A DNA stretch of 64,000 nt, from NCBI GenBank assembly GCA_949751835.1, contig CATKHK010000059.1, positions 242,150 to 306,149 on the forward strand, read 5' to 3'. Position 1 is the stretch's first letter; every line of letters starts with the position of its first letter. The stretch comes from Blepharisma japonicum. Taxonomy: Eukaryota; Ciliophora; Heterotrichea; Heterotrichida; Blepharismidae. The notes beneath the pieces were generated by a model. That model saw nothing but the letters and a program-made list of their open reading frames with translations, did no database searches and was not told where the DNA came from. This document shows positions 1,788 to 60,300 of the stretch, piece by piece. A program made the position numbers and the translations under genes.

Positions 1788-4337
1788 ATGCTTCGCTATG
1801 CAAGATGTTTGGGCCGCAGGTTTTTCAGAGACTATTCTTCGGCATCTGACATTGAAGAAGCTATACCTCCACCAAAAGCAGACAAAATGGGTGTCGTTAT
1901 AAGGCATCTCCCCAGAGGCTACTCTCAGCAATCATTATCTACCCATCTTTCGGCCCTTTTCAATTCAAATGATGTTTCCCTCTTTCCTAATATCAAAGGT
2001 GAGCCTGCATATGCAGTCGTAAAATTCGATGACCCAGTTCGCTTGGAGCAGGCTTTAAGCTTAAACAAAAGGCCCTTCCTCGGAAGAAAAATCTACCTTC
2101 AAGTAATTCCCAATTAGACAATTGAAGAATTTGTGGCGGCTAGCCCTGAAATCGCAGGAGGATTTGACCCTCGAAAAGTGATTGCATACCATTTAAGTCC
2201 ACTTATGAACGAAGAAGAAATATATAAGATGTTCTCTCAAGTAGGCGACATCATGGGGATGCACTTGCCTAGAGACTACAATACTCCTCCAATGATGATC
2301 GATGGTGGCATTAATATCCCAGAATCATTGAAAAAATTCCATTTAAGGACAGAAAAGCAAACCGATTTTAGTGGGTTTACCTCAAGGCACACTTTAAATG
2401 ATGTTAGGGTTTATATTAAAGATGAAATTTCCAACCTTCAGTACAGACTAGAAGAGCAAGATATAAGTGAAGAAGTCAAAGGAATTTTTGAAGACATGTA
2501 TGACCTTTGGGACTATATTCGAGCTGTCAAAGACTCTCTACACACAAACGCATCAGATATGGAAAAAGAAATTGAGGAAAAATTCAATAATTTGTTGGGG
2601 AAAAAGGCTTCAGCCAGTCTAAGAAATGAATTGCTTGACATTTTGATGATGATGAAACTTGACTCTAAAAAATTTATTGACTATTGGTTTATGACTAGAG
2701 GGTATGTGCATATCACATATGCCACAAGAAAACAAGCAGAAAGAGCCATTTATTTTGGAGCTGTGGCCAGACCAGAAGGTCGCAATCTAGAAGTAGCTTT
2801 TGATAGAGGAGTTCCTGGATATTTTTACTGTGATAAACTCGTAGGAGAAGCATTTTTCCAAGAATTCACTAAACAGAAAGATACAGAGAGAAAAGATATG
2901 CAAAGAACCTTAATTTCTCAAAAGCACCATGAAACAGCATTCAAAGACATTTTTTATAAAAAAATTGCTCAACAAACCCACTATTATGGGAGTGACGAAG
3001 AAAGAGATCCAGTTTTACAAAAAATTGTAGACAGCTATGAAGATTCAAATGAAATAAGAGAAGCTATTGATCATATTTACCCATATGGTGCAAACGAAAG
3101 AGAAGAAAAAACTAAATTTAGCAGCCCTGTAACTGATCTTGCATCTTCTGATGACGAAATTCTTAAATTGCCTGAAGAGACAGAATATTTTGAAGATCAA
3201 AGCAGAGGAAGGCTTAATGATCCAAACCATCCTTACACTAAAAGGCTTATGGATAAATACCTTATTAATAATAGCAGCTTGCCAAAAACCACTGATGAAA
3301 TTAATATGATGAGGATAAGCCCTGACTTTTTTGGCCCAAGAAAAATTCCTCCAAAGTCTGTCTGGGCAAATTTATCTGAGAAAGAAGAATTCGGAACTAG
3401 GATAATGGATATCGAACAATTCTTCCACGAAGCAATACCAAGTGAACTGAAATTATCTCCTGAGCTCCTCACGAAAGCAAGATTTAGCGATTATCCAGAA
3501 GTCCGATATGTCTATAAGAGACCATTTAACTACTCAGATATGCCTGCTCCTAAAATGTCATCAGACACAGCTAGTAGATCTGCAGTTAAAGAAGAAATGA
3601 TGACCTTTTTAAGAAGCTTGACCAGTGAGAATGCTCCTTCTGAAAAAACCCCTGAACCTCGCAACTTGTTTGGAGAAGAAGAAAATAAATTATTTAACCA
3701 AGAAACATGCAAACAACTAAGTATCCACACCGATTCTGATGAAGAAGAAAAATTCCAAGCATGGATTAAAACAAACGTAGTTTCAGATACAAACACAAAG
3801 GACATAAGAGTGCAAATAGCACAAAATTATATGGAAATTGAAGGGTTTTTGGCAGAAATCGTTACGAAAAGTGACGTTGCCTATACAAAAAGATATATTT
3901 ATGAAGGTGACGACGTGGAGGAGCATGTTAAAAATGTCAAAGAAAAATTCCCTGAGTTAGATATTACACATGCCAAGGACAAATTTGACCAGAATGTCGT
4001 CTTATTAAAATATGAGAAAAAATTCAAATTAAATCTAGACGAGGTTGAAAAAATGCACAGAAAATATTTCCAGCAGGTAAAAAACAACCCTGATGAGCTA
4101 GAGATTGATGAAGAAGATGAAGAACTTGTGCAAAAATTCAATAACATTGAAATGAATACAGTGGATATTTGCAATGACTTGATGAATCAAATTTATGAAA
4201 AGGCATGCAGAGAACATATGGCAAGTGAGTACAATATGGAAGATCTTGATAAATGGGGCTCAATAATTAAGGACTTAAAAGAGCATGCAGAGAAATTGGA
4301 TGCAGAAACATTTGTGGAGTTTTTGAGAAATAGATAA
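1788..4337 (+). CDS. RRM protein with possible mitochondrial presequence
   Basis: An 844-residue protein made by joining two exons across a 15-nt intron at 2103-2117. The N-terminus (MLRYARCLGRRFFRDYSS) is basic and amphipathic like a mitochondrial targeting peptide, which is an inference. An RRM fold covers about residues 33-105. A second RRM appears to start at VIAYHLSPLM (about 121), is broken by roughly 135 helical residues, and resumes at RGYVHITYAT (about 299). The rest is charged and helical without a recognised domain. A role in mitochondrial RNA handling or the mitoribosome would fit, but nothing proves it. The downstream exon alone would lack an ATG, which supports the joined model. 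Confidence 0.72.
2103..2117 (+). other. 15-nt intron
   Basis: GTAATTCCCAATTAG. Removing it joins the first RRM exon to the long downstream frame (LQ|TIEEFV) and removes the in-frame TAG. A lies at -6 from the 3' end. Confidence 0.85.
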
Positions 4338-4544
4338 ACTAGGTTAAAATAGAATCTTAATATATCAGTTGCTCTTTTTCAATTAAACTTAATTATCAAT
4401 TCAGCACATTAACTACCAATAGTAATGAATTAGCATCAATTGTCTTTAGATCCTACTAAATTGCAAGATAAAAATTATACTCAGACTGATTTTTATAAAA
4501 AATTCAAGCTTCCTAATTTTTCTTGTTTCAAAACAGCTATATAA

Positions 4545-5537: not shown

Positions 5538-5602
5538 GGTGAATTCATTAAAACTAATCCTTAATATACTAATTAGCTTAAAAGCTCTCATATTTGTTTT
5601 AA

Positions 5603-8600: not shown

Positions 8601-9037
8601 TAACTGTTTTCTTTATCCCTCTATATGCAAGTGAAGAAGGTATTATGAATAGCAAAGGTTATAACTATAGCCAGTGGGGCCTATCTGTGACTTCTTTTTC
8701 TTGTATTATTTTTGTTGTCAATTTTAAGCTAGGTCTTCACACAAAACTATGATCTGTTTATCACTTTATTGCAATACTAGGGACAAGCATACTCTGTTAT
8801 TTCATTTTTATTGTAGTTTATGACCCTTTTACTACTCTTCCAACCGCAAAAACGCTTTATCAGATGCTTACAACACAATATTATTATATTTGTATTCTGG
8901 TTGCAATTGGCTTTGTTTTTACATTAGATTATGGAGTTCAAATATCCAAAAAAATTCTTTGGCCTTCAATTTCAGATAAAATAATGAAATTCTCAATACA
9001 AGTTCGAAAAGAACAAGAAAAAGACAATTATTCATAA
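5603..9037 (+). CDS. P4-type ATPase (phospholipid flippase)
   Basis: A 1144-residue protein in one frame with no intron and several TGA-Trp codons (5828, 7490, 8219, 8573 and 8750). P-type ATPase signatures are clear: the actuator region with DGEKTLK (about residue 167; the family form is DGETNLK), the phosphorylation loop FSDKTGTLTSNRM (about 384), GYRTLM, TGDKLETAENIG and the hinge GDGANDVSMI (about 831). The P4-type motif PISL in the fourth membrane segment is present at about 334. Several membrane segments follow the hinge, as expected. P4-ATPases move phospholipids to the cytosolic leaflet, often with a CDC50 partner; no such partner is seen nearby. The length is normal for the family. 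Confidence 0.93.
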
Positions 9038-9345
9038 AATATTTTTTTTAGTTCTAAGATAAACTAAATTTTAAATTAATCAAATATTTTGCAAATTTTT
9101 CTTAAGTGTGACTTATTTCCTATATGATTATTTTTATAGTCAATTAATAATAATCACCATTATTTAACAGTTTTGTAAAGATTTTTTTTATTTGCTCAAT
9201 CGATGAATTTAATAATTTTAAGAGTTTTTGCATAGAGCATCCCAACTGTGGCAATCAAAAGCACTTTCCATATTATCTGTTTAATACTAAAAAGGCTTAT
9301 TTATTTAAAAAATATAAATAATTAGATACTTTCGTTTGAACAATC
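9038..9345 (+). other. AT-rich spacer, nothing recognised
   Basis: 308 bp between the flippase stop and the kinesin start. It is AT-rich with no sustained open frame, repeat or RNA gene visible. It must hold the terminator of one gene and the promoter of the next, but neither can be pinpointed. Confidence 0.6.
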
Positions 9346-12213
9346 ATGGAAATTCAAGAAACACAAGAAGCCGATATACAAATTATAAGACAAGAGTACC
9401 AAGAGTAATCCATAATTAGGTTTCAAGAACAAGCAAAAGAATACGAAGAAGCCCTTGAAGCTGAAATTACAGAAAAACAAGAAAAGTTAGAAAGTGCCTT
9501 AAGGAAAATCGATGATCTTAAGGAATCTTTAAGTCAAATAAAACAAAAGTATGATAAAGATGAAAAAGAGTTAGCATGATATCAAGGGGAGTTGGAAAAA
9601 TTAAAAAGCACTATAAAAAAATGTGAAGAACAAAAACGAGCTCTAGAACAGTTAAATGATCAATGGGAAAACACAGTAAGGGCATTAGAGTTTTCAAAAC
9701 AAGATTTAGAAGAGAAGCTCTATCAAGCTGAGGAAAATTCTATATTACATCAAGAAGAGCTATCCGAATTCAAAGTACAAACAGAAATAGAAATTCAAAG
9801 GCTTAAAGATCAATGCAATGAACTAAATCAAGAAATAGAATCTTTACGATCTCAAGCTGACATGAATCAAGTAAGTTCACTTGAAAAAGAAGTTTCAGAG
9901 CTTCTGTATCAAAGGGACGAACTTCAAAAACTCCTAGAGCAAAAAGAAAATTCCATATCTCTCAATCATTCTTCAGCCTTTACTCCTAGAAGTATACAAT
10001 CGAATTTATCCTTTCCTGAGCAAAAAAGGGCACAGATTAAAGTGCTAGTTAGGATTAGACCAGCACAAAATAAGCTGAAGCCTTGCAGTTTGACATGCTT
10101 TTCTGGGGAAATCCAAACAAATCCGACAGTTGAAAAACTGAAAAATCAGCGGAAAACTTTTTCTTTTGAAAAAGTGTTTGGACAAAACGCCAGCACAAGC
10201 GAAGTGTTTCAGGAAATTATGTCGAGTATTGAAAAAGTCAGTTTAGGCGGCAGGACTTGCATATTGGCATATGGACAGACTGGTTCAGGTAAGACACATA
10301 CTATGAGTGGGCTAATATCAGAATCCTTATCGCATCTCAGTAAATTGCTGAAATGCGAAGAAACCAAAGTATCTATACAATGCATTGAAATCTATAATGA
10401 GCAAATAAAGAATTTACTCAGGCAAGAGCCTAACATAAAAAATTGGACGGAAAATGCAAATATCGCTGACATGAAGTTTGAAGGAAATTGGGTGCCAGAA
10501 GTGATTAGAACAGTAAATGAGGCTTTTTCTAAACGGACTACTAAATCTACTCAATCAAATGAGAACTCATCAAGAAGTCATATGGTTTTCACCTTGATAA
10601 TTTCATTTAGAAATTATGAAGGGACAATTCAGTTTGTAGATCTTGCTGGTAGTGAAAGGCTGAATAAAAGCCAAACTAAAGGCGACACTTTGAAAGAAAC
10701 AGTCCAAATAAATAAATCTCTTTCTGCACTAGTTGATGTAATTGGTGCACTAGAAAGCAAGCAGTCGCATATTCCTTATCGGAATTCTATGCTGACAAAA
10801 GTGTTAAAGCCAACTCTAGGAGAAACTGAAACTGATGTAAATGCTATTATGAATTGCAGCCCTGAAATAGAAAATTATAATGAGACAATCTGCACACTTG
10901 AGCTTGGTTCTCGACTAAAGTCTGTCGATCTAGACTGGGTAGTCAAAAGAAATAAAACAAGCCAAGAGTTGGAAAAAACTTTAAAATTACTTGGAAAAGA
11001 AAGAGATGAGAAAGCTCTGCTTGTGGTGAAAGTGGAAAAAATGGGGAAAGAGATTGCAGAGTTGGAGAAAGGGATAAAAGAAAGGGACACAAAATTGAGT
11101 GCTTTAATGAATAAAATTAAAGAAAAAGACAAATCAAATATTGAAGATGTTGAGAAATTGAGAAAGGAGCTGATAAATATGAAAAAATCTCAGGAATTAA
11201 ATGTTTCGAAAGCCAAAGCTGCAGCTATAAAAACAGAAACGGAAGTAATAAAAAAGAAGCAAGAAGGGGTTATTGTGAAGCATAAACCTAAATCTAGCAA
11301 AACTGAAATTGAGATCTCTAAGTTGCAACTTGAAATTGTAAATAAATCTTCAACAGATCTTAATAGAAAGAAACCTTTAGAGCCAAAAAATAAACCATCA
11401 ATATCTGGCAAAACAGAGTTAGAAAAAGAATTTAAGAAAGCAATAGAAATCAAAAGGCAAAAAGCAGAGATAGAAGAATTCAAAAAGCCAGTTGAAAATA
11501 AAAATCGAACACTGTTAAAAAATGAAGATAGTCAAGATTTTAACAAATCATTAGAAAACAAAACCAAGATTCATATAATCAAAAAGGTTAAAGAAGACAT
11601 GAACAAATCCACTGAATCCACAACAAAAATACAAGCTATTAAAAATAAAGGAAATGAAGAATCAAACAAAAGTACAGAAAATATATCCAAAATATCATCT
11701 ATAAAGAAGGAAGAAAATGAAGGATTAAATATAAAAGTGGAAACAAAAGAAAATGTAAATAGAATAGGTAAGGAGGAATTCAAGGAGCAAGCTGAAATCG
11801 AAACACCAAAGTATAGGGTTGTTAATAAAATCGCTAAAGATGAAGTAAAGAAGATACGAGAGGAAAATAAATCTAGGGGGAAAATAGTTAGAAAACTAGG
11901 AAAAGAAAATCTGGAGAAAGAGCATTTGGACAATAATCAAATTATTGAAATAAATTCAAAGCAAGAATTTGAGATTCAGCCTAAATTCATAATAAAGCAT
12001 GATTCAATTGCGAAGAAGGTCAGCTCATCTATTTTAGAAAGCAGTTCTGAATTTAAAAACTCTGTTCTAGTATCACAAGCTTCATTTGAACATAAAAATC
12101 ATACTTCTGAGCAGCAAGCTCCTCTTGAATTCAAAAGACCAACTTTTGGGCCACAAGCACCATTTTTAATTCAACCTCAAGGTCGTTCAAAAATTCCTGC
12201 ACCCAAAAGGTAA
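9346..12213 (+). CDS. Kinesin with internal motor domain
   Basis: A 950-residue kinesin. The first coding exon (9346-9404) is joined over a 15-nt intron, and a TGA-Trp follows at 9578. Residues about 1-215 are coiled coil. The motor spans about 225-515 and has KVLVRIRP, the P-loop GQTGSGKTHTM (about 305), switch I NENSSRSHMVF, switch II VDLAGSERL (about 426) and the microtubule-binding HIPYRNSMLTKVL. A coiled coil before the motor resembles kinesin-14, but the motor is central and is followed by about 430 Lys/Glu-rich residues with a roughly 21-residue repeat. The protein ends in a basic Pro-rich stretch. It moves along or organises microtubules; the subfamily is not settled. Confidence 0.92.
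9405..9419 (+). other. 15-nt intron
   Basis: GTAATCCATAATTAG splits a Glu codon after 19 codons of the kinesin. Splicing restores ...EYQEFQEQAKE and removes an in-frame TAA. A lies at -6. Confidence 0.88.
11535..11730 (+). repeat. About 21-residue tandem repeats in kinesin tail
   Basis: Three successive units start DFNKSLEN, DMNKSTES and ESNKSTEN. Each continues with a K-I/x-x-I-K pattern, giving a coding period near 60-66 bp. A shorter QASFEHK / QAPLEFK / QAPF repeat lies close to the C-terminus (about 12075-12170). Confidence 0.7.
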
Positions 12214-14054: not shown

Positions 14055-14597
14055 TTAAAAACTTTTCATTACATTTATAAAATCATTTATCGTGATTGGG
14101 TTATTTGGGTCAATTCCGGCCATTTCAAACATCTCATTAACTTCACTTTCAGTAACGGGTACTTCAAGTTTGCTCTGCAAAGCCGCTTTAATATCAGCCA
14201 CATTAGCGTATCCTCTTTCTCTTTTGTCAAAAATTTTAAAAGTGTCTTTGATTTCTTGCTCTCTCCCTCCTTGGTGGTACCTTCGAGTAACAATATTGAG
14301 AAGTTCATTCCATTCTAAATAAGTCCTTCTAGGATCAATATCATGACTCTGTAGCTCTTTTTCGAAATCTTTGCTTGTCATACGCCAAAAACCGAAGTTT
14401 CAGAGAATTCCTCGCACATGGTTCATTTGAATAACTCCAGGTTGGTCTTCAGTTTCATATAAAGCAACAGCTGCACGCAAGTCATCAAGCTAAATAAAAG
14501 TTACCAAAAAGTCAGGAAGCTTATATCCTTGCTTTTGGGCTTGTGCTTTGGCCTGAGCCTGTGCTTGCCGTCTTTGAAAGTTTCCTTTTGTTGCCAT
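14055..14597 (-). CDS. Calmodulin-like EF-hand protein
   Basis: A 175-residue protein joined over a 15-nt intron at 14490-14504, with a TGA-Trp near 14398. The N-terminal 25 residues are a Gln/Ala/Lys-rich tail. The remainder has the helix-loop-helix layout of the calmodulin/centrin family, but the loops are degenerate (DKRERGYANVADI and DPNNPITINDFINVM), so calcium binding is doubtful in most of them. It could be an axonemal light chain or a centrin-like linker; that is inference. Starting at the internal Met at 14381, as a standard-code reading would, removes the first third. Confidence 0.8.
14490..14504 (-). other. 15-nt intron
   Basis: Read on the minus strand: GTAACTTTTATTTAG. Splicing joins LPDFL to LDDLRA and removes a TAG. 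A lies at -6. Confidence 0.87.
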
Positions 14598-26024: not shown

Positions 26025-28694
26025 TTAAATATTGTGTCTAGCTTTAAAATCCTTAAATAGCTCATATTTCTTCGCCCATTCCGCCTGGCTTATTATAGGA
26101 TCAATTTCAGCTGCTACCGCTGCTGCTGCATCAATATTATTGAGTTGGCAAAGAATAATGAATTTAAGAAGAAGGGCTTTTACAGCAGACTTTTCTTTTA
26201 TTGCAATGGATTTTTCGAACTTCAACAATGAAAGGTAATCTTCAATCGCATAAAGTCCATCCATTAAATTAATTCCATGCATGGCAGCAATTTTCCCTAT
26301 TTTATATAAAAATATAGGGTCACTGCTGACAGCAAATTCTGTGCATTGCTCGTTATCTGAGTGAATAGGTTTCATAATTTCTTGTTGCCGTAAATCTTCA
26401 TTGTTAAAATCAAATTCTATCGATAAATTTTGAAATTTTTTGAATCCGCTAATATCCAGCTCGTCATTTTCTTGTAAATCTGGATTGCTTTCTAAAATTT
26501 CTTCTGGGTGAGGAGCATCTTCGCCAATTAATAAAGTTAGGAGCTCTTGGTTTCTTCTAAACGTGTTCTTTTTAGATTGATCTTTGAAAGACTGACTATA
26601 TGTTGGGGCAGAAATGCTGGCATAGGAGTTTCGTGAGCTTGAAAAAGAATAAACGCCAAGTGAGTTTCGAGGCAAGTTATTTGCTTCATCTAAATCTTGA
26701 TATGTAGAAGACTCTTGCAGTTTAAGAGTGAATGGAATATCGGCATATCGGGTTACTGGAAATATTTTAGCCAGGGCTTTTAAGATTCTTAAAGCTCGCT
26801 CAAGCTCGTTGTTTTTTACCAGTATTTTTGCAAATATAATATTAGCTTTAACTCAAGTTGTGCATGGCAGCTGACTATTCATACACTTTGCAACCATTTC
26901 TTTACCATATGTTCTCATTGAAAGATAATCTTCGCTTAATTTGAGAAATTTAAGTAGCTCAAAATAAGGTGCTATTCTAGTACTTGCCATATATGCAGAC
27001 GATTCTAATTCCCTGATTGCTTCTTCTTTGTGTCCTTCAGTCCAAAGAATTTTCGCTTGCAATACTTCTCCAGAGAGTTTATTTAATCCTTTGATTTTAT
27101 TGCATAAACGTTTGCATTTATCAATATTTTTCAAAAAAGATCCATTTTGCAGGATTTCTTCAACTTCTTTCAACGCTGATACACCTTCTGTTAAGCTTTT
27201 CATAGCGGTTTTTAAGTCATTGGATTTTTTTTGATCTGAGTTTTCTAAATATTTGTAGGATTGCTTCATGGCGCCATAAGCTTCCACGTGCTGCTTTGAA
27301 TTTAAGTAAGCTTTAGCAAGCCAATAATAAATGGGCCCATGCCAACATTTGTCACACTGTCTGATGCACTCTTCAAGAGTTCCAATTGCTAACCCATTAA
27401 GAGTTGGCTCTTCTGATTTTGTAGATAATCTGCCAATATGATATAAAAATATAGGAAACTCTGGATTTTCAATGTACTTTTGTTGTAATATTTTCAGAGC
27501 ATAATTAATTTTTCTCATTTTGAAGCATGACTTAGCATAATTTATGCATAATAGTGCAAAATATTCATTATCATCAGAGCCGCAAACCCTGATGAAAGCT
27601 TCACATGCAATGTCTTCTGACTGTTCATAGTCTTTTACGTTATAATAATAGTATTGTCAAAGCTTTATATATGCTTCTGGTCTATTTGGGCATTGAAATA
27701 TACATTCCCTTAGTGTGTCTCTCCCTTTAGCTTCTTGTCCTTCTTCGCTAAATAATATATCGCTCCAAGCTACATATCCATAATAATTATCAATTTCCCT
27801 AATTTTTGCTGCATAATATCTCGGGCTCTCAATTTCTCTTCCGATTTCAAGACAGTTTTTCAAAGATAATGTCATCAGACATCATAAAACATCTATTTCT
27901 CCAGGAAAACTTATGAGTTTCTCTATCAGTTGTGGGAATATCACAGAGAATTGTACAGCAGATCTTGATCCACAACACCACATTCCTACTTATATCTTAC
28001 GATTTCCAGATTGCACTGGCTTCTGAGAAATATTATCAATCTCAAGAACAGTTTTCATGTTCAACATAGCATATCATAAATTATATAGCTTGTCATTTGG
28101 AGAAATTTGTAATGCATCTTTTATATAAATCATTGCCAGTCCATATCTTCCTTCATAAGCATACAATCTACACATCCCGAAATAAGCTTCATGGGATTTT
28201 ATATTTTTAGTTAAAATTTCATTAAAGATAAGTTTGCATTCCTTGAGCTCGAAGTCAGGGATGATTGATTTTATCCCATTATTCCTTATGACAAATCATG
28301 ATAAGCAGGAGTTTTCCTCTGGTTTATGTCCTTCATCAAATTTCTCACTGAGTAATTCATCTTGGAAAAACCGCTTTTTCCTTTTGGAGTCCAATTGCTT
28401 GATGGTTCTTTCATTGATTTTTTCTGGAGAGAAATGAGAAGGTCTTGGAGTTTCATCAATTTTAAAGATGGGCCTCTCTATTTTTTGCTTCAAAAAAGAG
28501 TTTCTAGCTGAAATTTTTAATTGAGATTTGCAATAAAGTGCAAAAGTATCGTCATCAGCTCCAACAAGAGGGGATTCTTCAGGAAACTGGAAAAAATTGC
28601 TATTGATGCTTAAGCGGTCTGAAAAGAAAGGATTATGAGCATCAAATCCATTTGTTGCACTTTTTATAGCAATAGAAAATTTTGGAGTTTCCAT
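26025..28694 (-). CDS. TPR-repeat protein
   Basis: An 884-residue protein assembled in one frame from 28694 to 26025. It has several TGA-Trp codons (near 28296, 28080, 27887, 27657 and 26853) and a 15-nt intron at 27986-28000. After a disordered Ser/Phe-rich N-terminus of about 130 residues it is built of helix pairs typical of tetratricopeptide repeats, for example AYIKLWQYYYNVKDYEQSED, YYWLAKAYLNSKQHVEAYGA and ALRILKALAKIF. This is the pattern of APC/C subunits and of ciliary TPR proteins such as BBS8, but no subfamily signature is seen. The C-terminal 220 residues contain another helical block. Confidence 0.8.
27986..28000 (-). other. 15-nt intron
   Basis: Read on the minus strand: GTAAGATATAAGTAG. 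Its removal rejoins QSGN|RMWCC and deletes an in-frame TAA. A lies at -6. Confidence 0.82.
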
Positions 28695-29187
28695 GATGTG
28701 GGAGTTTCCAAAATGGTATAATAATGAAAAAGGAATTTATAATAGAGACAAATCAATAACCCGATGGATTGAAATTGGAATAAAAGATTTTAAGGCATTT
28801 TAGAGCTTAATTATAATAAATATAATTTTATCAATAAGTATTTATAGTTTAATTCTTAACCTCCTGCATAATTTGTGCAAGAGCTGTATTATGTTTTAAT
28901 TTCCTACTTTTAATCACTGGTTTGACGATATATCTTATAGCTTTTATTTTTCTCCATAATCTTAAAACATACCGCCATGCATATATGGATTCATTATTTT
29001 TTCTTTTGAAGAAAAATAGATTGATCTCTAATTATTGATTTTTTTTAGCATTCAATACTAGAAAAATGATATTTATCGTTCAATTACATAATGTTCAAGA
29101 CAGCAAACCAAAAAATAATTTCTTAATCCTATTTACTATTAATTCCGCTTCTTATTTACTTATTTGAATAAATATAAATTTTTTACT
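28695..29187 (+). other. Spacer of about 490 bp with only doubtful open stretches
   Basis: AT-rich spacer between the TPR and the CEP350-like genes, which diverge from it. A 61-codon minus-strand stretch (28849-29031) is open and has codon use that looks partly coding (YAWRYVLRLWRKIK), but it has no start codon and no acceptable splice into one. It may be a relic. I see no tRNA or repeat. Confidence 0.5.
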
Positions 29188-37318: not shown

Positions 37319-38869
37319 TTATTCTTCAATTAGTGGTAGAGATTTTCGGCAAGTAGGACATTCCATTTTAATAGCCATCCAATTCATTAAGCAATCTTCA
37401 TGGAATTTGTGTCCACATGGGGCATGCATGGTTTTTGCTAGATTTACTGTTCCTTCAATTTCCTTCCCTTGTAGATTTAATGGAGTCATGCATATAATGC
37501 AATCAGTGTTTTCTTCAATCTGTGCTTCTTCTTCTAGACCCCTATAATAGCTGTATATTTTTGGTCTTAAAAACCTCGGAACAAAAAAACGAGGTCCAAC
37601 TTTTGAATTTTGGAGAAGCAAAACTATTAGTTGTAAAGTCAAATAAATAGTTAATATTGTGCAAAATCCAATATTTGGTGTAAGTGCTAAAAAGTTTGCT
37701 GGGCAGCCAAAGAAATATAAAATTGTGCTTAGCCTTGTGGCAAATATTAATAACAATATAGGAGTTCTTACCGGAAACTTGTATCCTTGCCTGGCATTTA
37801 ATATTATTTGAGGAATAAAAAAGCTGTGAATAAGAAGGATTCAGTAGAGAAAAAGGACATCAAAAATAACAGAGAAAATCACAGTTGATATGATGAAAGT
37901 TAAAAACTTAGTTTGAAAGCTGCTATAGTATCTTCTGAAATTTTCTATACCCTCAGCATAAAGCTCAGGATGCTGAGCTTTTCATACCAAAAGTGTTAAT
38001 CTTCCTTGAATAATCATAAAAACAGCAAAGCACCAAAATGAAGCCAGCATTAAATAATCAAATGAGTCTTCATAACTAACTGCTAGATGGCAATGATATA
38101 AGCAAAAAAACAAATCAATTGTTGCCTGCATCCCAAGCATTCATATAGACGTCTTTTTTGCAAAGTTTTCAGAAATGCAGTCCTGTGTATGTCTAGCAAA
38201 TCCAAAAATAAGTAAAACTGACGTGCATGAGATTATAAAACTATAAGTCACGATTGGCTCTTGTTTAGCTGAAGCAGTTAATTCATGCAGTATAAAATTT
38301 AAATCTAATGAGCAATCATCACTCTTTACCTCTCCATAAATTTTGTATAAATCATTTTCATCTAATGTAAAGTTAAACAAACTTCTGCACGAGCATCCTC
38401 TTAAATCAATTGGATTCTTCTCAGTAATCATTGGACAAGCATCACTAGTAAGTGATTTGGTATCTGGATCATAATAAGCCTTATGGAAAACTAGCTTATA
38501 ATAAATATTACTTTCTCATACTCCATCGTAAAGGAATATCTTAAATTTCCTGACTTCTGTAGCATTTTCTTCTCTAATGTGAAAATATGCAATGCCAGCA
38601 AAATTCATCATACCATGAAGAGAAGTGCTTTGGTTTCTTGCTTGTCAACTTCCTCTGTATAACTCAGATAAAAACTTAGGGGGAAACTGCGAAGTATAAT
38701 TCTTTTCCAGCTCAGATTCGTTTGAATTTGTTGCATTGAAGTCAGCCCTAAAATATGATCTTGATATTTGTTGATCTGAAGCAGGAGGACCAAAGAATGA
38801 AAATAGAGCGTAAACTATAGCAAATAGACTAACTAAAGCAACAATTTTCTTTCTTATTGAATCTACCAT
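37319..38869 (-). CDS. TUL1/FLY1-like multi-membrane RING E3 ligase
   Basis: A 516-residue protein in one frame with several TGA-Trp codons (near 38645, 38517, 38142 and 37839). An N-terminal signal anchor (KKIVALVSLFAIVYALFSFF) is followed by a luminal domain of about 170 residues with CSCRSLFNFT. At least six hydrophobic segments come next, including the PQIILNARQGYKFP turn typical of the TUL1/FLY1 family. The C-terminal RING (CIICMTP, HAPCGHKFHEDCL and CPTC) lies at about 450-516. Yeast Tul1 works in the Golgi Dsc complex, marking membrane proteins for degradation. The call rests on topology plus the turn motif. Confidence 0.82.
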
Positions 38870-42254: not shown

Positions 42255-42503
42255 TTATTGCAAATCTTCACCTGAAATATCTTGGATATGCTCAAGTACA
42301 TCACGAGAATTATCGTTCTGTTCAACTGCAAATAATGCAGGATCTGAAAATGTAGGAGGGAGTTTCAAGGTTGATTCAGAAGAAAATCTTGACTTTGCAA
42401 AGGTGAAATTTGAAGAAGGTTTTGGAAGAGCATGAGGTGGATTAGGTTCAGGAGGATTCTAAGTTGTCATTACATCCATTTGTTGTCTGCAGCAATTTCC
42501 CAT
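42255..42503 (-). CDS. Small lipid-anchored protein (MGNCC), split by intron
   Basis: A 77-residue protein that appears only after removing a 15-nt intron (42459-42473). Ten codons (MGNCCRQQMD) precede the intron and 67 follow it. The start carries a glycine for N-myristoylation and neighbouring cysteines for palmitoylation, so a membrane tether is likely. The rest is Pro- and Ser-rich and ends with an acidic segment. No family is recognised. Support comes from the perfect intron match, one continuous frame after splicing and stop-free coding; length makes it the least certain of the spliced genes. It lies between the GPR180-like and EF-hand/WD40 genes. Confidence 0.62.
42459..42473 (-). other. 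15-nt intron
   Basis: Read on the minus strand: GTAATGACAACTTAG. It lies between codons 10 and 11 of the small MGNCC gene, and removal opens the frame. A lies at -6. Confidence 0.72.
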
Positions 42504-46765: not shown

Positions 46766-47035
46766 TTATTTATGCCTTTGTCTCTATAATTATAATGATA
46801 TATATTTTATTAAATTAGCAATCAATAAACAGATCTTAAAAGAAGCTTAAAACATGGCTAGAAGGATTTATTCATTAATAAATTGTGTGAGATTGTATTA
46901 GATTCAGCATTTAGGTTCCCCAAAAGACTTATTTTATGAGATTCTCACAGTTTTTGAAATCACAATGGGTTTACTCAAAATCTATTTTAATCCTTAATTA
47001 GTCAAGTTATAACGAATCAATTCACAGATAAAAAT

Positions 47036-48406
47036 ATGAATGGACTTAGCTTAGACGCTGATTTACGTGGATCAAGCCCATCAATGGAGGACAGAATCAG
47101 CAAGCTAAAGAAGCAATTCAGAGAAATTGATATAAATGAAGACAAACAGTTGACTTTTGATGAACTTCATGCTTATTTATCTAAGAAATCTGGAAAAACT
47201 TTCAATGATATCCTTCTAGCAGAAATATTTAAAACATTAGATAAAGACCAAAATTCAATCATGACTCTTGATGAATTTGTTCAAGGCTATTATCAAGCTG
47301 AAACAATTGTGAAATCAAGAATTGACGTTTTGAAAAATAGCATCATAGAAAACACAAAAAAACTATCTGATACAAAGCGCCAGCAGATAGAAGCAAAGGC
47401 AAGCAAGGGAAAAGACCAAAACGTTTTGAGTGTTACTGTGAAAAAAGCAGAAGGACTCAAATCAGGAGGGCTAACTGGCAATAGAGCCCCAGTAGTCAAA
47501 GTTTCCTGTGAAAACCAAGAAATCACAACTCAGCCAGTCCCGAATCCAACCAATCCGTCTTGAAATGAAACTTTTACTTTCTTTGTAACTAAAGGCACTG
47601 AAGATATTTCAGTTGAAGTATTTGATACTGAAAGAGGCTCGCCGACTACTTTCTTAGGAGAAGTATCAATCCCATTCACAGCTCTATTTGACCAGCAGCT
47701 TCATGAAGACACTCTTGAGCTTAGGGGCAAAAAGCTAGGAGACAGAATTTCAGGAACAATCCAGCTGGCTTTGCAATGGATTCACAATTTGCCACTTTAT
47801 CTTGACGGAATTATTAAACAATTTGAAGATGCTATAAATGAGGATAAAACAGAACTCCTTGAAATGGAAAAGTATTATAATGACCTCCATAGTGCTCTTG
47901 GAGCTACAACGGGACCTGATTGGCTGCTTCTTAATCCAAAATTCAAAGAAGCAGAAAATCAATTTTCAGCAAAAATGGACGAATTTAAAGAGAAAACATT
48001 AGGTAATTGATATGAAGGAAATATAAAATGGTCATTTGCAACTCATATGTCAACATATTTACTTCTGGTCTTTTCAGTTTTGGCAATGTTTGTAAGACCC
48101 GATTTCTTCAATGTAATACAAATTTAGCTTTCAATAGGAATTTTAGCTTTATATTATTTCTATACCGGAGTAGGAACAGGTCCAAAATATAAAATAGTGC
48201 TTTTGGCAATAATTGTATCAGAGCTTTATGATCTTATTTGACTCTACCTAAATATGAGCGTAAATTTCACTTAGAATTGGATCAGTGGCACAGGAGATGG
48301 TGGCGACGGGATAAAAAGATTTTCCGTGGCAATATCAATCATAAATTTAATTTGTAAGTTGGCATTTGGAGCGATATTCTGGAAGAACTCCATTGAGATG
48401 GCTTAA
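47036..48406 (+). CDS. EF-hand, C2 domain and membrane-segment protein
   Basis: A 446-residue protein after removing two 15-nt introns (48113-48127 and 48260-48274). Two EF-hands lie at about residues 33-45 (DINEDKQLTFDE) and 70-82 (DKDQNSIMTLDE), both with good calcium ligands. A C2 domain (about 123-235) follows with NVLSVTVKKAEGLKSGG and a PTNPSW core whose W is TGA. Then come about 80 helical residues and three or four membrane segments at the C-terminus (MSTYLLLVFSVLAMF and onward). The combination suggests a calcium-regulated membrane protein. The introns are needed: without them the frame would stop in the middle of the membrane part. Confidence 0.82.
48113..48127 (+). other. 15-nt intron
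   Basis: GTAATACAAATTTAG. Its removal joins RPDFFN to LSIGILALYYF and deletes a TAG. A lies at -6. Confidence 0.87.
48260..48274 (+). other. 15-nt intron
   Basis: GTAAATTTCACTTAG. Removal joins YLNMS to NWISGTGDG and deletes a TAG. A lies at -6. This is the second intron of the same gene. Confidence 0.85.
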
Positions 48407-48506
48407 TTTATTTAACTGGCTAGTTTATATTAAATTCATATTTACTAAAATAATTATTTTTCCGTAAGTCCCCCCATTTTGTTAACTTTAATATTTATCC
48501 AAGAAA

Positions 48507-51500
48507 ATGAAAAACTCCGAAAAGGACTCTGATTCATCAAAACTTTTACTTTATTGTGTTACACAATATCTCTCAAATTTTCCTCAACTTCATGAAGTTA
48601 TGAAATCTCTAAAAAATAAAGTAAATTTTTATTCAGTGTGAGGAGCATAATTTATATCCTCAAAGAACAACTTTTAATGGTAAGCCTGCAAAGAGGACCT
48701 ATGAAGATTTGCTAATTGCTCACCCTCAGCTTAACCCAAAACAGATTTTTGAAAGAGCTTTAACTCTCCCGCCTACATTTATGCCATCATTCAATAAAAA
48801 CTTACATGAATGGATAAATTCCCGAGAACTTAACCAAACAGCAGATCTTCCTCCTAATCTTTTCCACAAGTTTGAATGGAAAAAGACTTTTCTTGGGCAT
48901 ATCAAACAAACATATGACAGTGATTTTTGCCCAGTTCTGTGCGTTAGGGCTGATCATCAAGGAAATAAAATTCTTACAGGCGCAGACGATAAGTTAATCA
49001 AAGTGTGGGATGCTAATAACGGAACTTTACTTTACACAATGAAAGGTCATAGAGGAGAAATTGCTGATATTTTGATAACTCCTTGTAATCGATATGTTAT
49101 TAGTGGATGTACATCAGGAGATTTGATTGTGTGGGAACTAGAAACTGGTGATATAGTTACCCAAAATAATGATGCAGCTGGAGAGATATCGTCACTAGAG
49201 TTTTTTAAGTCCTATGAAGGAGATTTATTTTTTATTTCTTGTAGCAAATCAGGCAGAGCTTGTGTGTATAGCGAGTCTATCTTTGATGGGTCTGAAGACT
49301 CCGGGATGGTCTGATATTATTCAAATGACTCTAATAAAATGCTTTGCGTTTCTCCTCATCCTGCTGGGAATTTTGTAGCAATTGGAACTAGAAAAGGATT
49401 ATTACAAATATGAAGCTTAAAGCCATTAGAGACAAGGGCTGAATATGACCCTAAAAACCATTTAATGTGCGTTCTAACTGAAAAAAAATCATCAGATATC
49501 AACTTTATTGAGTGGTCACCTTGTGGGAACTTTTTAATTACAGGAAGCCTCAGTCATCATGCAGTTCTGTGGAAATTTGACAGAAGTCTTTACAGAAAAT
49601 TTGTTGAAAATAACCGAAATCCTATTGAAGCCTCTTTAGTGAAAATCACTGAGATAGCAGATAAAGGGAAAACGAAGTGCTATTCAATTTCTTGGAATTT
49701 AAGTGGTGATTATGCACTCATTTGTGCAGAAAATACATTTTCAGTCGGCAGAAAAGGAGCAAGCACTCCTCCTCAGTTTAGCTTAAAGCTGTGAAGCAAA
49801 AAAGAGATGAAAGTTGTTTGTAACTTGGGTGATGAAAAATATAAGCACAAAAATAAGATCCTTGCTCTCAGAAAGCATCCAACTCAAGATCATATAATGC
49901 TATCAGCTGACTTTGACGGATTGATAATCATATGAGATCTTTTTCACCGAATGGCAGTGAAATCATTTAAAGAATCAGGGAACTTTATTTTAGCACCCAT
50001 TTTAGATCTTCCATTAGTTGATTGCAACTGATTTGAAGATGGAACTGGATTTATAGTTTCAAGCCAAATTGGAACGTTTTCAATTTATGGAGTGGGAGGT
50101 CGAGATGAATATATAGCATCTCCAATCCAGCAGTTTTTTACTTCAGATTACTTATTAGATAATGCAATGCGATGTGTACTTGCAGATAAGTTTATGCACC
50201 CACATCCATATCAGCCTCCCGTTCCGATTTATTATTTATCAAGAGGAATTTCTCAAAATCAGCCAAGCCCTTATCAGCAGAGATATGAATACGGGCTTCA
50301 AGAAGAGAAAAAAATTGAATTTCTCCAAGAAAGAGATGAATTCCATCCTCTCTTTATAGACACCAATAACCTAGACGAATCTGAAGAAGAAGAAGAAGCT
50401 GACTCAAGCATCTCATCACCAGCCTCTGTGCCTAATGATGAAGAAATAACAGTACCAGAGCATGATAATGTCCTTGTTGTCGAAACAGATCCATACTGTG
50501 CAAGGTGCAAAGGAATCCTTGACGTTCAGACAATGTGATGCTACGAGTGCAATCAAATTTATCATCCTTCTTGCCTTAAAGCTATTGAGTCGCAAGCAGA
50601 AAAAAATGTTTGTATTTTGTGTTTCAAAAAAGCCATTGGGAATATTAATGAAGTTCCTCATGCTAGAAGAAAAATGATAAGCAGAGATTTTCTAGAGCTT
50701 GAGGATAATGATGTATCAAGATATATACCTCAAGTAGGCGACCAAGTAGTTTTTTTCTTGCAAGGATATGAATCATTTTTAAAGCACCACCAAAATTATC
50801 CTCTTTTAGACAGCGAACTATTATCATATATCCAGCCAACTTATATGGAAATAGAAGCTATTGAATACATTTGGCCAGGTGAACAAAATCTTGATTCCAC
50901 TACCTCACATATCATTATGAAGCTGACGCTTAAAGTTTATAAGGAAGATAAGCTACACAAAGCATTGTATATGCTAGATGATTTTTTACCAGAATATATT
51001 GTCCTTAAAGATATTTTTGACAAAAAACTTCGTCATGTCTACCCTAAGTTGAAGCCAGGAAACGTCATATATGCAAAAATTGATGGAGGACTTTATCGGG
51101 CAATTATTAAAGAAATATCATGCAAAGAAGAAGCCTTTAGAGACTCTCCATGAGAAGCAATCGTTGTCGAATATCTTGATGATGTGCAGCCAGTAAATCA
51201 AAGATCTCGAAGAAATAGCAAAAACTCTCCAAGACTCAGCTTTTGGGAAATTGAGCTTTCCTCAAGCTATGATGTATCTTTGATTTGCCCAATTTCTTCT
51301 GAAGAAAGCATTCTTGAGTGTTCAGAACGAATAAGAAGCTTGATGAACGACACAAGAGCTAGTTATTTTAATCAAAAAATAAGCTCGACTGAAATAAAAA
51401 ATTACTATAACGAAGTTATGGTGCCCTCTTATATAGGATTGATTCATGATCGGATCATAAACAAATATTATAGGACTCAAAATGCCATTATTGAAGATAT

Positions 51501-51804
51501 TGAGCTGATGATTAACAATTCAATCAAAATTAATGGTGAAAGAGCTAAAACAACGAGAAATGGAAACTATATAACCGACAAACTAAAAATGATTATTAAT
51601 AAATATAGCTCAAAAGAATTACCATTTAGAGAAATTTCAACACAACTGCCGAAGGCTAGCAGCCATGTTGTGGGGTATGAGTACCCTTGGAATGTTGAAT
51701 GGTGCATGCCTAGAGAGATTGTGGAACGTGAAGACACAGAAGTGGAAATTCCTAAAAAAGAAGATAGTGGAAGAAGAAAACTTAGGAAGACAAGAGAAAG
51801 ATAA
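48507..51804 (+). CDS. BRWD: BRWD/PHIP-like WD40 protein with PHD finger and bromodomain-like end
   Basis: A 1093-residue protein after splicing a 16-nt intron at 48621-48636. The N-terminus is BRWD-like (LLLYCVTQYLSNFPQL, then LYPQRTTFNGKPAKRTYEDL). An eight-blade WD40 region covers about 115-560 (DKLIKVWDAN, GDLIVWELE and so on). At about residues 655-705 a PHD finger has CARC, CYEC, H-x2-C and CILC, with a TGA-Trp in front of the second pair. A BRWD-type crypto-Tudor segment follows (YIPQVGDQVVFFLQGYE), then a helical C-terminal part (about 945-1020) like a bromodomain. BRWD proteins read histone marks and act as ubiquitin-ligase adaptors. The PHD finger is not part of the animal proteins. 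Confidence 0.87.
48621..48636 (+). other. 16-nt intron
   Basis: GTAAATTTTTATTCAG. Because it is 16 nt it changes frame; removal joins SLKNK to CEEHNLYPQR. A lies at -6. Confidence 0.88.
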
Positions 51805-51858
51805 ATAATAGTGGTTATATTTAATTATATTTGGCTTTTTTGGACTATTATGATAGTT

Positions 51859-52479: not shown

Positions 52480-52602
52480 TTTGTTACTTAGATGCAGACA
52501 GCTTATTAAAAGCTTCAGATGCCAGTTTAGTGACTCACCTCCAAATTTGCAATTAATTAATAGCATGACAAATAAAAAATATAAAAACATAAAGATCTAA
52601 AA

Positions 52603-53550: not shown

Positions 53551-53557
53551 TTAAGAA

Positions 53558-54181: not shown

Positions 54182-54353
54182 TAAATTGAATACCAGGGGG
54201 ATCTAAATTATTTATTAAAATTATAATTCATAAAATTTTATATTATGCTCTTATAACTTCTATCCTATTGGGAATTTGTGATTTAAGCTTTATTTGGTTA
54301 ACTGCACTATTATTCTTTAGAAAGTCAGCTATTTAATGATATCGCTATATCAA

Positions 54354-57300
54354 TTATTTTGGCACAATTCTTAAGAAATCGAAATCCTTCTCTGCGGCGT
54401 TTCCATCGATATGGATAACTCCAAAAGTAGCATCTTCTTCATCTATTTGGTTAAGACATGGGCCTCTGAACTTCTCCACTGTTTTAATCGGCGGAAGCTT
54501 CTTTGGATTCATTCTTCTTGCTTTAATATCCCCCAGCTCTTTTAAGGATAAAGTTTCTTTGAGCTTTTTCTTTCTATTTTTAAGTGCTGGAGCTACTTCT
54601 ATTGCAGCATCACCATCAGCTTCTGCAATATCTTCTGCGACCAAATCCTTCACATCTTTAGCTTTTGAATCTCTTGTGAAAATTTTCTGCATAAACCAGG
54701 GATCTGTAGCTTCTTTCTTCTCTTCAGGCGTAAATGCTCGGGGAGTTTTAGGAATTTCAGTATCAGAATCAGAATACTCAAAATCCACAGATGGCCTGCT
54801 GAATGAGACATCAGAAAATTCTTGATCTCCACCTTTGAAACTCATATCAAGGGTAAAAGGTGTAGAATTTTCTGAGGAAAACCTCGGACTTGGGATTTCT
54901 GACTCAGATAGCGCTATTAGTGGATCTTCGTTTTTTTCAAAGCCTGAGAAGGTGGAGTCTGCATCTAGCTCAATATCTGGAGTATTATCATAAAGGTCCA
55001 CGATCTTTGCATCTTTGAAGTTTCTTCTAACTTTGACAGTTTTTCCATCTATAGTAAGAGTAGCAAAATGAATGTTTGATTTATTCACATTAATTGTTGA
55101 TGGATTGTAGCTATTGACAATGCTCTTGGTGGGCAAATTGGTTCTAGCATCCAGTATAGGAAACCCAGTAAAAGGCTTTTTAATTTTTGCTATGAGTCCA
55201 GTTGGAAGATGGGTTACTAAAACGCATTCAAAATCGTTCTCATCTACAACTCCATTATTAAAATCAAATTGCTCTTCATTTATTACATTTCTTCCAATTA
55301 AATACCCTTTCTTATCTTCTTCGATATCAACTATTTTGCCTCCCTTATAGTTTCTGCAAACCTCAATTTCTTCTTGGCTTATTTTATTTATAAAGATGGC
55401 AGCTCCAACATCATATCTAATTAATTCATAATTCTTCAGATCAATGTTCGTATTATTTTGAAAAGGCTGCTTTACAATAACTTTTTTATTTCCAGGTGTA
55501 TAGAATACTGAAATACACTCGGGGTCATTATTATCTACAACTGCAGTATTCAAATCTAATTCAAGGTCATGCTCTATGACAGTAAAAATTTTTGCATCCT
55601 TAAATTGAATTTGAAAATTATCAATATCTGATTGACTTGTTTCATTTCTTTCACACATTGCTCGATTAGTCTCTATTTGTGATTGAGTTTCACCCATTTC
55701 CGACTCAAAATTGGTATTTGTGTCTTTAAATTCATTGGGAAACTCAGAATTTATGGTATTATTTGCCTCAGTTAAATTTAGCCATTTTTTCCCTGACCGT
55801 GATGTGGCAACATCTGCAGACATAGGCATAGAATCATATGTGTGATCAGGAGAAATAGATATTAGAGCTCTATGTTGGAGTGTTTCTTTACCTATTGTAT
55901 AAGACATTAGAACAGATTCAATAAGCGACAAAGATGCCACTAGCAAGGTGAGTGTTAAGCTATCCAATGTTTGGGAGTATATTGAATTATCAATCGGATA
56001 TTTATAAAGAATATATACAAGAAGGATCAGCATCGGGACTGTAGTCAAAATTGTACTGCTAAACATAAAGATGATAAGAGGTAAATAGACTGTAGAATAC
56101 CTTCCAAATTTGATTTTATATGGTGTGCTGGAATAAAGCAGTCTCATGAACTTAAATGAAAATACAGAAAGAATAGTAATCGAGCTAGTGATTCATTTAT
56201 GATTTTTTATTCACAATTTATGCTCCTTATCAAGCTTTGTAAAGTAGCCATGGAAAAGGGCTATAAACAATATATTGAGGCAAATGTGCAGTGAGAATAT
56301 AATCACTAAAGTAAAGAATATATCATTGGCATCAAAATTGGAGATATCCATTAACCTCCTCCCAGTTTTGACATCTTGCATTTCTATTAGCGAAATCCCA
56401 ATAGCACCCCAAGAGAAAGTCTCTAATATTCCCCATACTCCGACGATTGTCGGCATCATCAATGTTCCAACAGCTAGTTTGGCTACACCAGCAAATATAA
56501 TAGAAGAAATCCCTGCTATTGTAGCAGGAAAAGGAACCTCGCCTATTGATAATTTTTCTGATGAATCTTTATCAGTATCATTATTAGAACTTGAATTATT
56601 CGTCTGTGCTGGCAAGCAAAGCTCGTTATCATAATTACAAGCCTTGACATTGCATGCAGGATCGCAGACAGTATTTTCAAGCTCAGCAGATCCGCAGCCG
56701 GATGAGCACTCGTCAGGGAGAAGACCGATAACAATACAAGAGCTATTGTATAATTGATAGCCTGATGGGCAGATATCATAGCAAGATCCTTCATAAAAAA
56801 TAAGATCATTGGCACATGTAACACAAGTTTTTGTCGAGTTAATGCATGTGAGGCACGAAGAGTCGCATTCTAAACACTCACTACCAATCTTAATTGTAGA
56901 TGAGGGGCAAGAATCATAACAAATATTTTTATAAAGAATTTTGGAATTGCTGCAGCCAGTACATTTTGTTTTAGAGCTTTCACAGGAGTAGCAATTAGAA
57001 TCACAGTTTTCACAGTTCCCACTAATTCCGATTGTCCCTTGTGGACAAGCACTAATGCATTGATTCTGATAAAAATAATATCCGGATGAACACTCCACAC
57101 ATGAATCCGGACTCCCGCTACAAGTTTTGCATGATGTAATGCAGTCTACGCACTCATTTTTGACAGGAATAGCTGTGTTTTGAGGGCATGAGCTTACACA
57201 AGTTCCTTGGTAAAGGTACTCATTTTCAGGGCATGATATGCATGAATCTACTGTTTTTGAGCACTCCTTGCATTTATCAGAACATTTTTGGCAAGAGTCT

Positions 57301-60300
57301 TCAATTCTTCCATAGCCACTTGGACAAGCACTTAAGCATTGATTTTCATATAAAAAAAATCCATCAAAGCATGATGTACAGTTGGCTGTTGTTACAGAGC
57401 AAGTGCTGCATGAGTTATCACAATCCAAGCAGCTTGCTCCTACTATAATAGTTGTATTTTGAGGACATTTACTGATACAATTATCTTGATATAGAAACAT
57501 ACCGTCATTGCATGAAGTGCATTTGTTTATATTTTCAATGCATTCCTTACAGTTTGTGCTACAATCTTGGCAAGCATTTCCAAGAGTAATCATGACTCCA
57601 GTTGAGCAAGAATTAATGCATGTACCTTTATATAAATACATTCCAGAGCTACACGATTTGCAAGTATTTATATCAGGTCCACAAGTTTTGCAGTTCGAAT
57701 TGCATTGCAAGCATTCCTTTGATGATGTGGTAAGATAGCTACTTGGACATGAAGATACACATACACCATTTTTCAAGTAAGGCAATGATGTTGAGCAGGA
57801 TTTGCAGTTAGAAATTGACTGTGAGCAAGTCAAGCAGTTAGAGCTGCATTGAATACAATTTAAGGAGCCATCTATATCTACCCATCCAGGCTGGCATAAA
57901 GAATGGCAACTGTCGCTTCAGTAATATGGAGTGGATGACGACGGAGAGCAAGAAACACAGCTATCTGGGAGAGTATCGCATTCTTGACATGGAGAATTGC
58001 AAGTAAAAACTATGACATTGCCGTTAATTGTATCAATTGAATACCCATCTGATGTCTTTGTAGTTAGCACAAATGGACTTGAGGCTGTTGTATATTGATA
58101 ATTTTTCAAATTTTCTACTGAAAAACTCAGGCTTTTACTAGTCGACTGCCCAAAGAGAAATATTTGAAGAATGTTATTCCCAGCCACGTTGCATTGCACA
58201 TAGTTGATTTCTTTGCATTTTATATTAGAAGTCATAGTAATTTGGCTTGGGATTTGTATCTCAACATATCCACCAATTGGAACGTCATGGTTGAGCTCTA
58301 AAGTAAATGTGTAATTTGTGGTAACTGAAATGCCTGTATCTTGAGCAGAGACAGATGCAGAATTTAGCTTTCCAGGTGTTGTCATTTGAATACTTAGACC
58401 TGATTGCAGCGAATCAACTGAATACCCTTCTGAAGTAGTAGTTATTCCAAAGGACTGAGTAGGCTTAGTTGAGCTTGGATTACTTATTTGAGAAATCTGT
58501 AAGGAAAACTGAGAAGTGACTTGTGCTGAAAAAGTCAATTCAGCAACCAATAAACCTCCTTGAAGTGTGCAACTAACGGCAAAAGCTGTAATTCCACTTG
58601 CCTGGCATTGTACTGATGGCAGAATTACCAAATCTGATGGAGGAGCAATTTGAAGCCCAGAGTTGGCTGGTAAGGCATTATAAGGAGTTATATTGACAGT
58701 AAAGGTTGTAGTCTCTCCAACTATATAGCTCGCTGAACTGATTGAAGCTTGGAGAGCATGAGGAGTTTGCATCTGAATAGTTCTTCCTTGTGTCATTGAG
58801 TCAATAGTTAAGCCTGAATAAGATGTGTATACTTGAAACGACTTTGAAGCCTTCAGAGAGCCAGGATTTTTTATTGAGCCTATTGTAAAACTAATAAGTC
58901 CAGGCTGAAATGAAGATGATAAAAATCCATTAGATATAGTAATTGAGTTATAAGTATTTGTACAGGTAAATGATGAATCGATTCCTACAGCATTTTGACA
59001 TTTAGCTGTCGTGTCTTGAATTGATATTTCTTCGGGGAAGACAATTTTCAAGCCTCCTCCTTGAGGAATAGTATTTCTAGTATTAATACTAAATTTGTAT
59101 GTAGTAATATCTCCAGTAGTTAATGAAGATGGTACAATCGTTACTCCATTTAAAGAATCAGATGCCGCTGTTATAGTTGCGGAAGCATCATAATCAATAA
59201 GATACAGAAATTCATTGCTAGTAAACGTTTCTATTATAAAAGGATCACTTACTTGTATTGTCCCAGGATTTAAAACATTCTTTAGTTGAAGGCTAAGAAC
59301 TCCGCTACTATAATCACTCGAAAAAGCATTCGTTATATATAAATATTTTGAGTCCTTAACTTCGCATTGAGCATTAGAACTAAGCCCAGATATTATATTG
59401 TAGCATTGACTAATAGCAGAGTTAGTAAATGAGATTTGTGTTGGAGCGATCACCATAATTGCTCCACCCTGAGGGATTGGATCTGAAGGCTCGAAGGCAA
59501 ATGAATAAATAGTATTTGCATTTATAGTATAAGAGAGCGGAGTAATAACAACGTTTTTAATATTTCCTGAAGTTGATTGTAAAGTATATATTGTTGAAGT
59601 TTGGCAAATCAATCCATAAGTGCTTGTCTCAAGGAGAACATTAATTGCCCCAGTAGTTTTCATTGAGGAAGGATTTTTTATATTAGAAATTTCAAATTGA
59701 ATGGATGATAAGGCAGCTACATAGCTTGTAAACCCATTGGTTACCGTGATAATATTATTTGATAAGCTTGAGCCCAAGCTATAAGCAATCCCATAGACGC
59801 CATCAACTGAATAGTCGTCAGTGACTATAAAATCTGATGGAAGAGATACTATTAAAATACTACCTGATGGTAGAGGGTTTGAGCACTGAATACTAAACGA
59901 CATCGTTGTGATCTGGTTTATTTGTGTCTGCTGCAGCGACAAAGAAGAAACCGTCAAAGTGTTTGGCAGAGTAACTTCTACGGAAATTCCTGAATAATAT
60001 TCAACAATTCCACCGTTTAATGAAGTGTACACTGAAAATCCTGACATCGTATCCGTAGTTGGTGGATTTAAAATCCCACTTGCAAGAATTTGTATCTTTC
60101 CAGCCGTAGTTGAGCTGCCTTTAATTGATAAAACTCCATTCGAACATATGCACGTTGAAGAAAGCGAAAAATCTAAATAATTCTATACTGGTAACTGCAG
60201 TGCAAGTGATAGCCCCATTGCAAAACTGAGTCAAGCTAACTTGTGGAGGATTCAAATTTTGGTTTCAATAAGGAAATTTTACATCAATTTCTTGAGTAGT

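Follow-up and report, generated by a model that had tools for sequence, protein, structure and literature searches.

Introns of 15 and 16 nucleotides and the placement of their adenosine in a Blepharisma genome

Nine short segments in eight genes

We analysed nine putative spliceosomal introns of 15 or 16 nucleotides (nt) in a 64,000-nt stretch of Blepharisma japonicum DNA, hereafter called the window, which comprises positions 242150-306149 of contig C59 in an assembly of 45.2 Mb and 224 contigs. The window has an AT content of about 66%. Its long reading frames contain in-frame TGA, by which TGA is a codon for tryptophan in this genome, unlike in Stentor, whose genetic code is the standard one. 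TGA and TGG occur at 4.2 and 7.4 per 1000 codons, respectively, in 88 training frames, the frequency of TGA being conditional on the selection of these frames as open with TGA read through. The macronuclear genome of Blepharisma stoltei is described in the genome overview of PMC9942806 as having 66% AT, UGA as tryptophan and mostly 15- and 16-bp introns, features with which the present data agree; its assembly comprises 41 Mb and is thus smaller than the one used here. Position 64000 of the window coincides with the end of the contig, whose final 300 bases show no telomere repeat CCCTAACA. The nine segments are the following:

2103..2117, plus strand: 15-nt phase-0 intron GTAATTCCCAATTAG of the gene for an RRM-domain protein (1764-4334); TAG in frame if kept, spliced frame of 852 codons
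9405..9419, plus strand: 15-nt phase-2 intron GTAATCCATAATTAG, close to the 5' end of a gene for a kinesin (9322-12210); spliced frame of 958 codons
14490..14504, minus strand: 15-nt phase-0 intron GTAACTTTTATTTAG of a gene for an EF-hand (calmodulin-like) protein; spliced frame of 196 codons
27986..28000, minus strand: 15-nt phase-1 intron GTAAGATATAAGTAG of the gene for a TPR-repeat protein (26028-28736); 245 codons before the junction and 652 after it, intron holds a stop if kept
42459..42473, minus strand: 15-nt phase-0 intron GTAATGACAACTTAG of a short reading frame of 77 amino acids (aa); ATG 10 codons before the junction and 67 codons after it, TAG if kept
48113..48127, plus strand: 15-nt phase-0 intron GTAATACAAATTTAG of the gene for an EF-hand/C2 membrane protein (46991-48403); 374 codons upstream
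48260..48274, plus strand: 15-nt phase-0 intron GTAAATTTCACTTAG, the second one in this EF-hand/C2 gene; removal extends the frame to a stop directly past 48403
48621..48636, plus strand: 16-nt phase-0 intron GTAAATTTTTATTCAG with A at position 11 and CAG end, in a WD40/BRWD-like gene (48492-51801); frame broken if kept
60173..60188, minus strand: 16-nt phase-1 intron GTATAGAATTATTTAG with A at position 11, in a gene for a large protein (54357-60885); 232 codons before the junction and 1938 after it, frameshift if kept

All nine segments, seven of 15 nt and two of 16 nt on both strands, were located where the initial annotation had placed them. As it had described, each of them starts with GTA, eight end with TAG and one with CAG, and the sixth base from the 3' end (-6, corresponding to position 10 of a 15-mer and position 11 of a 16-mer) is A in all nine. 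In every case, there is one phase in which removal connects two open frames, whereas the retained segment introduces a stop or a frameshift.

The products of all eight genes were compared to Pfam, five of them as partial sequences, and matches above the family cut-off were obtained for six of them. No Pfam match was found for the 77-aa product of the 42459 gene or within the first 570 residues of the product of the 60173 gene. The best-supported intron in the window is the 16-mer at 48621, where the match to BRWD1_N (residues 6-79, profile 5-77 of 90, 29.3 bits versus a cut-off of 27, E=1e-6) spans the junction at residue 43. This match and the restored frames bear out the earlier proposal that these are spliceosomal introns, close to the smallest ones known. 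In the other genes, RRM_1 (residues 44-110) ends before the junction at residue 113 and does not span it, the Kinesin motor (E=3.4e-70) lies downstream of the junction at residue 28, and EF-hand_7 (E=7.5e-12) lies downstream of the junction at 14490, past which also the calmodulin matches start. TPR_14 (183-223) is upstream of the junction at residue 245, and both the EF-hand and C2 domains are upstream of the intron at 48113. The kinesin gene junction is crossed by a coiled-coil match below cut-off, which was left out of the evidence. A second copy of GTAATTCCCAATTAG was considered as a sign of a paralogue and dropped, as there was no significant alignment outside the 15-mer.

The adenosine in 15-nt introns across the genome

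The bare motif GTA N6 A NN TAG has 7 matches in the window compared to 5.37 expected from shuffling and is, alone, no evidence for introns in such AT-rich DNA; the evidence is supplied by the reading frames. Frames were scanned without demanding A at -6, using GTA...(C/T)AG segments of lengths 10-40 and a codon-usage score trained on this genome, in a sample of 264 kb consisting of the window and a 10-kb stretch of each of the 20 contigs C1-C20. The splice test was passed by 17 of 38 15-mers with A at -6 compared to 7 of 95 without it (Fisher p = 2e-6). Segments with A at -6 of other lengths, excluding 15 and 16, passed in 64 of 1154 cases (Fisher p = 2e-11 versus the 17 of 38 15-mers). For 16-mers, the respective numbers with and without A at -6 were 4/26 and 7/118, and for 17-mers 0/30 and 5/62. 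Among lengths 10-40, 15 alone clearly stands out, and the 16-mers are shown by single cases.

A first scan, with a stricter score and shorter flanks, recovered four of the nine introns, and the 264-kb scan eight. Thirteen non-A 15-mers from the two scans were inspected by eye and none was found convincing; the non-A 15-mer at L018:7389 (minus strand) overlaps a better-supported A-bearing 15-mer at L018:7400 (minus strand). A looser scan of the window, which took an ATG or an open frame upstream as its anchor, recovered all nine and listed seven further sites, one of which with A at -6 (3952, minus strand). None of the seven was judged convincing, six lying inside or antisense to long open frames and the seventh being at 38863 (minus strand). 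In a targeted frame test on a stretch of contig C1, 15 of 24 15-mers with A passed compared to 2 of 20 without; the sites were taken from the genome-count listing for this contig, minus those within loci L003 and L029. The scans undercount, since phase-1 15-mers lacking an internal stop are invisible to frame tests.

Pattern counts were made on the whole assembly, with the same pattern three bases longer (18 nt) as control. The genome contains 2390 + 2530 = 4920 15-mers of the form GTAA N5 A NN TAG and 1150 + 1150 = 2300 GTAA..TAG 15-mers with C, G or T at -6, compared to 587 + 551 = 1138 and 1146 + 1127 = 2273, respectively, at 18 nt. The excess over the control amounts to 3782 for the A class and 27, with a counting error of about 68, for the non-A class. 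Reversed-pattern counts agree within about 2% between the two lengths (3478 and 6713 at 15 nt; 3534 and 6626 at 18 nt); the length controls, 18 nt here and 19 nt for the 16-mers below, were chosen because reversed-pattern controls alone are not matched to the forward pattern. Genome-wide, A at -6 (position 10) is close to invariant in 15-nt introns of the GTAA..TAG class, and 15-mers of this class without it, read as introns, make up at most about 4% (27 plus twice the error). In Stentor, according to the intron statistics in PMC9505925, A is at position 10 in 8005 of 8173 15-mers and is lacking there in 168 of 8173. The most common Stentor intron of the same source, GTAATTTTTATATAG, occurs three times among the C1 matches listed for GTAA..A..TAG 15-mers.

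The adenosine in 16-nt introns

An inosine-triphosphate pyrophosphatase gene (L019:3688-3942, minus strand) contains both a 16-mer, GTAAATTTTACCATAG, and a 15-mer, GTAAAATTTATGTAG. With both introns removed, the product matches the Ham1 profile over 1-185 of 186 (E=2.4e-52) and aligns with the human enzyme (E=1e-50) through both junctions; with either intron kept, the full reading is missing from all three frames. In the 16-mer, the base at -6 is C, and adenosines are at positions 10 and 13. The 16-mer and the 15-mer of this gene, both with A at 10, form a compact natural comparison.

In a second gene (L004), the 16-mer GTAATTTTTATTTCAG, at the same place as L043, splits HPL/DTIKVRMQ, which we take to be a mitochondrial-carrier signature. 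The joined protein matches Mito_carr (2.4e-36) in two stretches, the range being printed for the downstream second one only, and two uncoupling-protein entries align from residue 4, i.e. before the junction at residue 20 (alignments not displayed). The sole interior A past GTAA in this 16-mer is at position 10. The homology-supported 16-mers with A at 10 (L019 and L004) carry C or T at -6 and have six bases after the A. At 48621 (plus strand) and 60173 (minus strand), the A is at position 11; both 16-mers of the initial annotation happen to be of this kind. Homology supports 16-mers with A at 11 in the case of BRWD1_N at 48621 and of a PROPPIN match that runs through the junction in L058, and a kinase domain (profile from position 1) runs through a 15-mer junction in L013.

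As judged from these frames and alignments, the extra base of a 16-mer can lie on either side of the A. Because some 16-mers have the A at position 10, the spacing of five bases between A and 3' splice site, which had been proposed to be fixed, is a property of the 15-mers and does not extend to the two 16-mers that leave six bases. A at -6 itself is close to invariant in 15-mers (excess of 3782 versus 27) but not in 16-mers, given the homology-supported ones with C or T at this position. In Stentor, 442 of 633 16-mers have A at 11 and 191 have it at other positions, left unspecified in the intron statistics of PMC9505925; here, some are shown at position 10.

Genome counts of 16-mers with a T-preceded A gave 790 for A at 11 versus 698 in the 19-nt control, and 871 for A at 10 versus 880. 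The reversed patterns at 16 and 19 nt were counted 1653 and 1494 times (A at 11) and 1847 and 1776 times (A at 10), so that the background differs by 4-11% between the two lengths, and the gap of 11% is enough to account for most of the difference between 790 and 698. True 15-mers with a second AG after them probably raise the counts of the 19-nt controls to some extent. Because the genome counts do not clearly exceed the controls, the case for 16-mers was built on frames and homology. In the frame test on the first-listed 16-mer sites, 5 of 21 with A at 10 (p = 0.02) and 3 of 20 with A at 11 (p = 0.16) passed, compared to 7 of the 118 16-mers in the 264-kb sample that lack A at -6, a result that suggests real 16-mers without proving them. 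Frame tests missed some sites: the first scan listed L004:9785 and L019:3927, which are absent from the list of the 264-kb scan, and the targeted test failed at the L004 site (as L043) and at L058 despite the homology support.

Five 16-mers GTAAATTTTATRRCAG lie about 4-5 kb apart on one strand of G000:C4:104997-122182, perhaps in a gene array. Near 56-59 kb of C1, two adjacent copies (L091 and L092) are 94% identical over about 1.2 kb, and both tiny introns are identical.

Splicing machinery and the role of the adenosine

A search for small nuclear RNA genes, covering U2 and U6, identified three U2 genes (L023, L024 and L025) and one U6 gene in the genome. AAGUGUAGUAUCUG is kept in all three U2 copies and AUACAGAGAA in U6, and the boxes pairing with branch site and 5' splice site are canonical. 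Over the aligned parts, the U2 copies on C12 and C33 are 91% and 80% identical, respectively, to the copy on C41. The single Cir_N match reported for the genome is a Cwc25 homologue (E=6e-28 with human Cwc25) at L107 (C47:48854-48958, minus strand), which starts with MGLKFLNKKSWHT. In-frame TAA codons are located directly upstream of this start, and no 15- or 16-nt GT..AG segment was found from 80 bases before to 60 after it. The residues Gly2-Gly3-Gly4, which are lodged in the active site in the case of human Cwc25 and missing in Stentor according to the structural comparison in PMC9505925, are missing as a plug here as well, with one Gly only, at position 2.

We are confident that the nine segments are ordinary spliceosomal introns of the heterotrich type, of 15 nt (main class) or 16 nt, in a genome with TGA as tryptophan, and that their A is probably the branch point. 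Some observations weigh against this assignment. Among the nine, no junction other than that within BRWD1_N is crossed by a domain match above cut-off, and eight of the introns therefore rest on their frames. The segment at 42459 was in the list of the first scan and failed the 264-kb scan, and it is the weakest among the nine. Furthermore, the 16-mers show no clear rise over their 19-nt controls in the genome counts.

The assignment of A at -6 as splicing branch point is probable by analogy, being in line with what is published on Stentor and with the canonical boxes of U2 and U6. According to this model, U1 and then U6 would pair with GUAA, and U2 would pair with the U-rich stretch preceding the A, which would bulge from the U2 helix and attack the GTA 5' splice site, giving a lariat loop of 10 or 11 nt and a tail of 5 or 6 nt. 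Splicing would be performed by the major spliceosome, although the A and the AG are too close to each other to accommodate a polypyrimidine tract, and the loss of the glycine plug of Cwc25 may free space for the tight loop. In a base tally of 31 segments, hand-picked from the scans and all with A at -6, T was found at position 9 in 22 and at position 8 in 20, and G at neither position in any of them. It is improbable that A at -6 is constrained for another reason, e.g. as a base recognised at the 3' splice site, with branching at a different nucleotide. The second A of the L019 16-mer, at position 13 (-4), is a possible branch by sequence alone; the L004 16-mer, by contrast, has its only interior A past GTAA at position 10, so that the need seems to be for a nearby A and not for the base at -6, and the U-rich bases before the A are as in the U2-pairing model outlined for Stentor in PMC9505925.

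Also very unlikely is a reading in which chance occurrences of GTA..TAG at gene ends, or errors in the assembly, account for some of the nine. The near-equal frequency of the bare motif in the window and in shuffled sequence is compatible with such an origin, as is the 77-aa frame without relatives at 42459, which failed one scan. The splice-test rate of 17 of 38 compared to a background near 6%, however, and the domain homology through junctions (BRWD1_N, kinase and Ham1) argue for introns. DNA elimination does occur in heterotrich genomes (PMC9942856, in its account of the process), but that the segments are internal eliminated sequences retained in the assembly is extremely improbable given their GT..AG ends, their fixed length of 15 or 16 nt as in the published Stentor and Blepharisma introns, and the identification of Blepharisma introns from mapped RNA described in the same source.

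As spliceosomal introns, the nine resemble those of Stentor coeruleus, for which the relevant sections of PMC9505925 describe a 15-nt main and a 16-nt minor class, GUA start and AG end, and which shares with this genome the conserved U2/U6 boxes and a Cwc25 without Gly plug. For heterotrich introns in general, the figures given in PMC11441545 are about 95% of 15 bp and the remainder of 16; Loxodes magnus, of the sister group of heterotrichs, also has very short introns in the same figures, but with a mode of 17 nt and a negligible number below 16 nt. A conserved A is reported in PMC10946202 for Stentor, two Euplotes and Oxytricha and not for the other species examined, the inclusion of Blepharisma among these not being evident from the passage concerned. 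Blepharisma introns of 15 and 16 bp are in print, with a supplement devoted to them (PMC9942806, main text), and this supplement on tiny introns may already give the positions of the branch A. The intron lengths, ends and A positions are thus already known from Stentor, and 15/16-nt introns are known for Blepharisma. Modestly new are the homology-supported 16-mers in two registers and, as in Stentor, a Cwc25 without Gly plug in a second genome.

Taken together, we tentatively propose, as a possibility for which the odds are not in favour, that the heterotrich spliceosome tolerates one nt before or after the branch A (loop of 10 or 11, tail of 5 or 6, never both long and hence no 17-mers), and that the loss of the Cwc25 plug, common to Stentor and this genome, is an adaptation fitting the 10-nt loop. 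The results confirm the tiny introns in a second heterotrich-type genome, with one correction regarding the 16-mers. Introns this short set a lower bound on what a spliceosome can hold. With a fixed A, the likely branch geometry can be read from DNA alone, and the 16-mers, in which the additional base may precede or follow the A, show which distance is tolerated.

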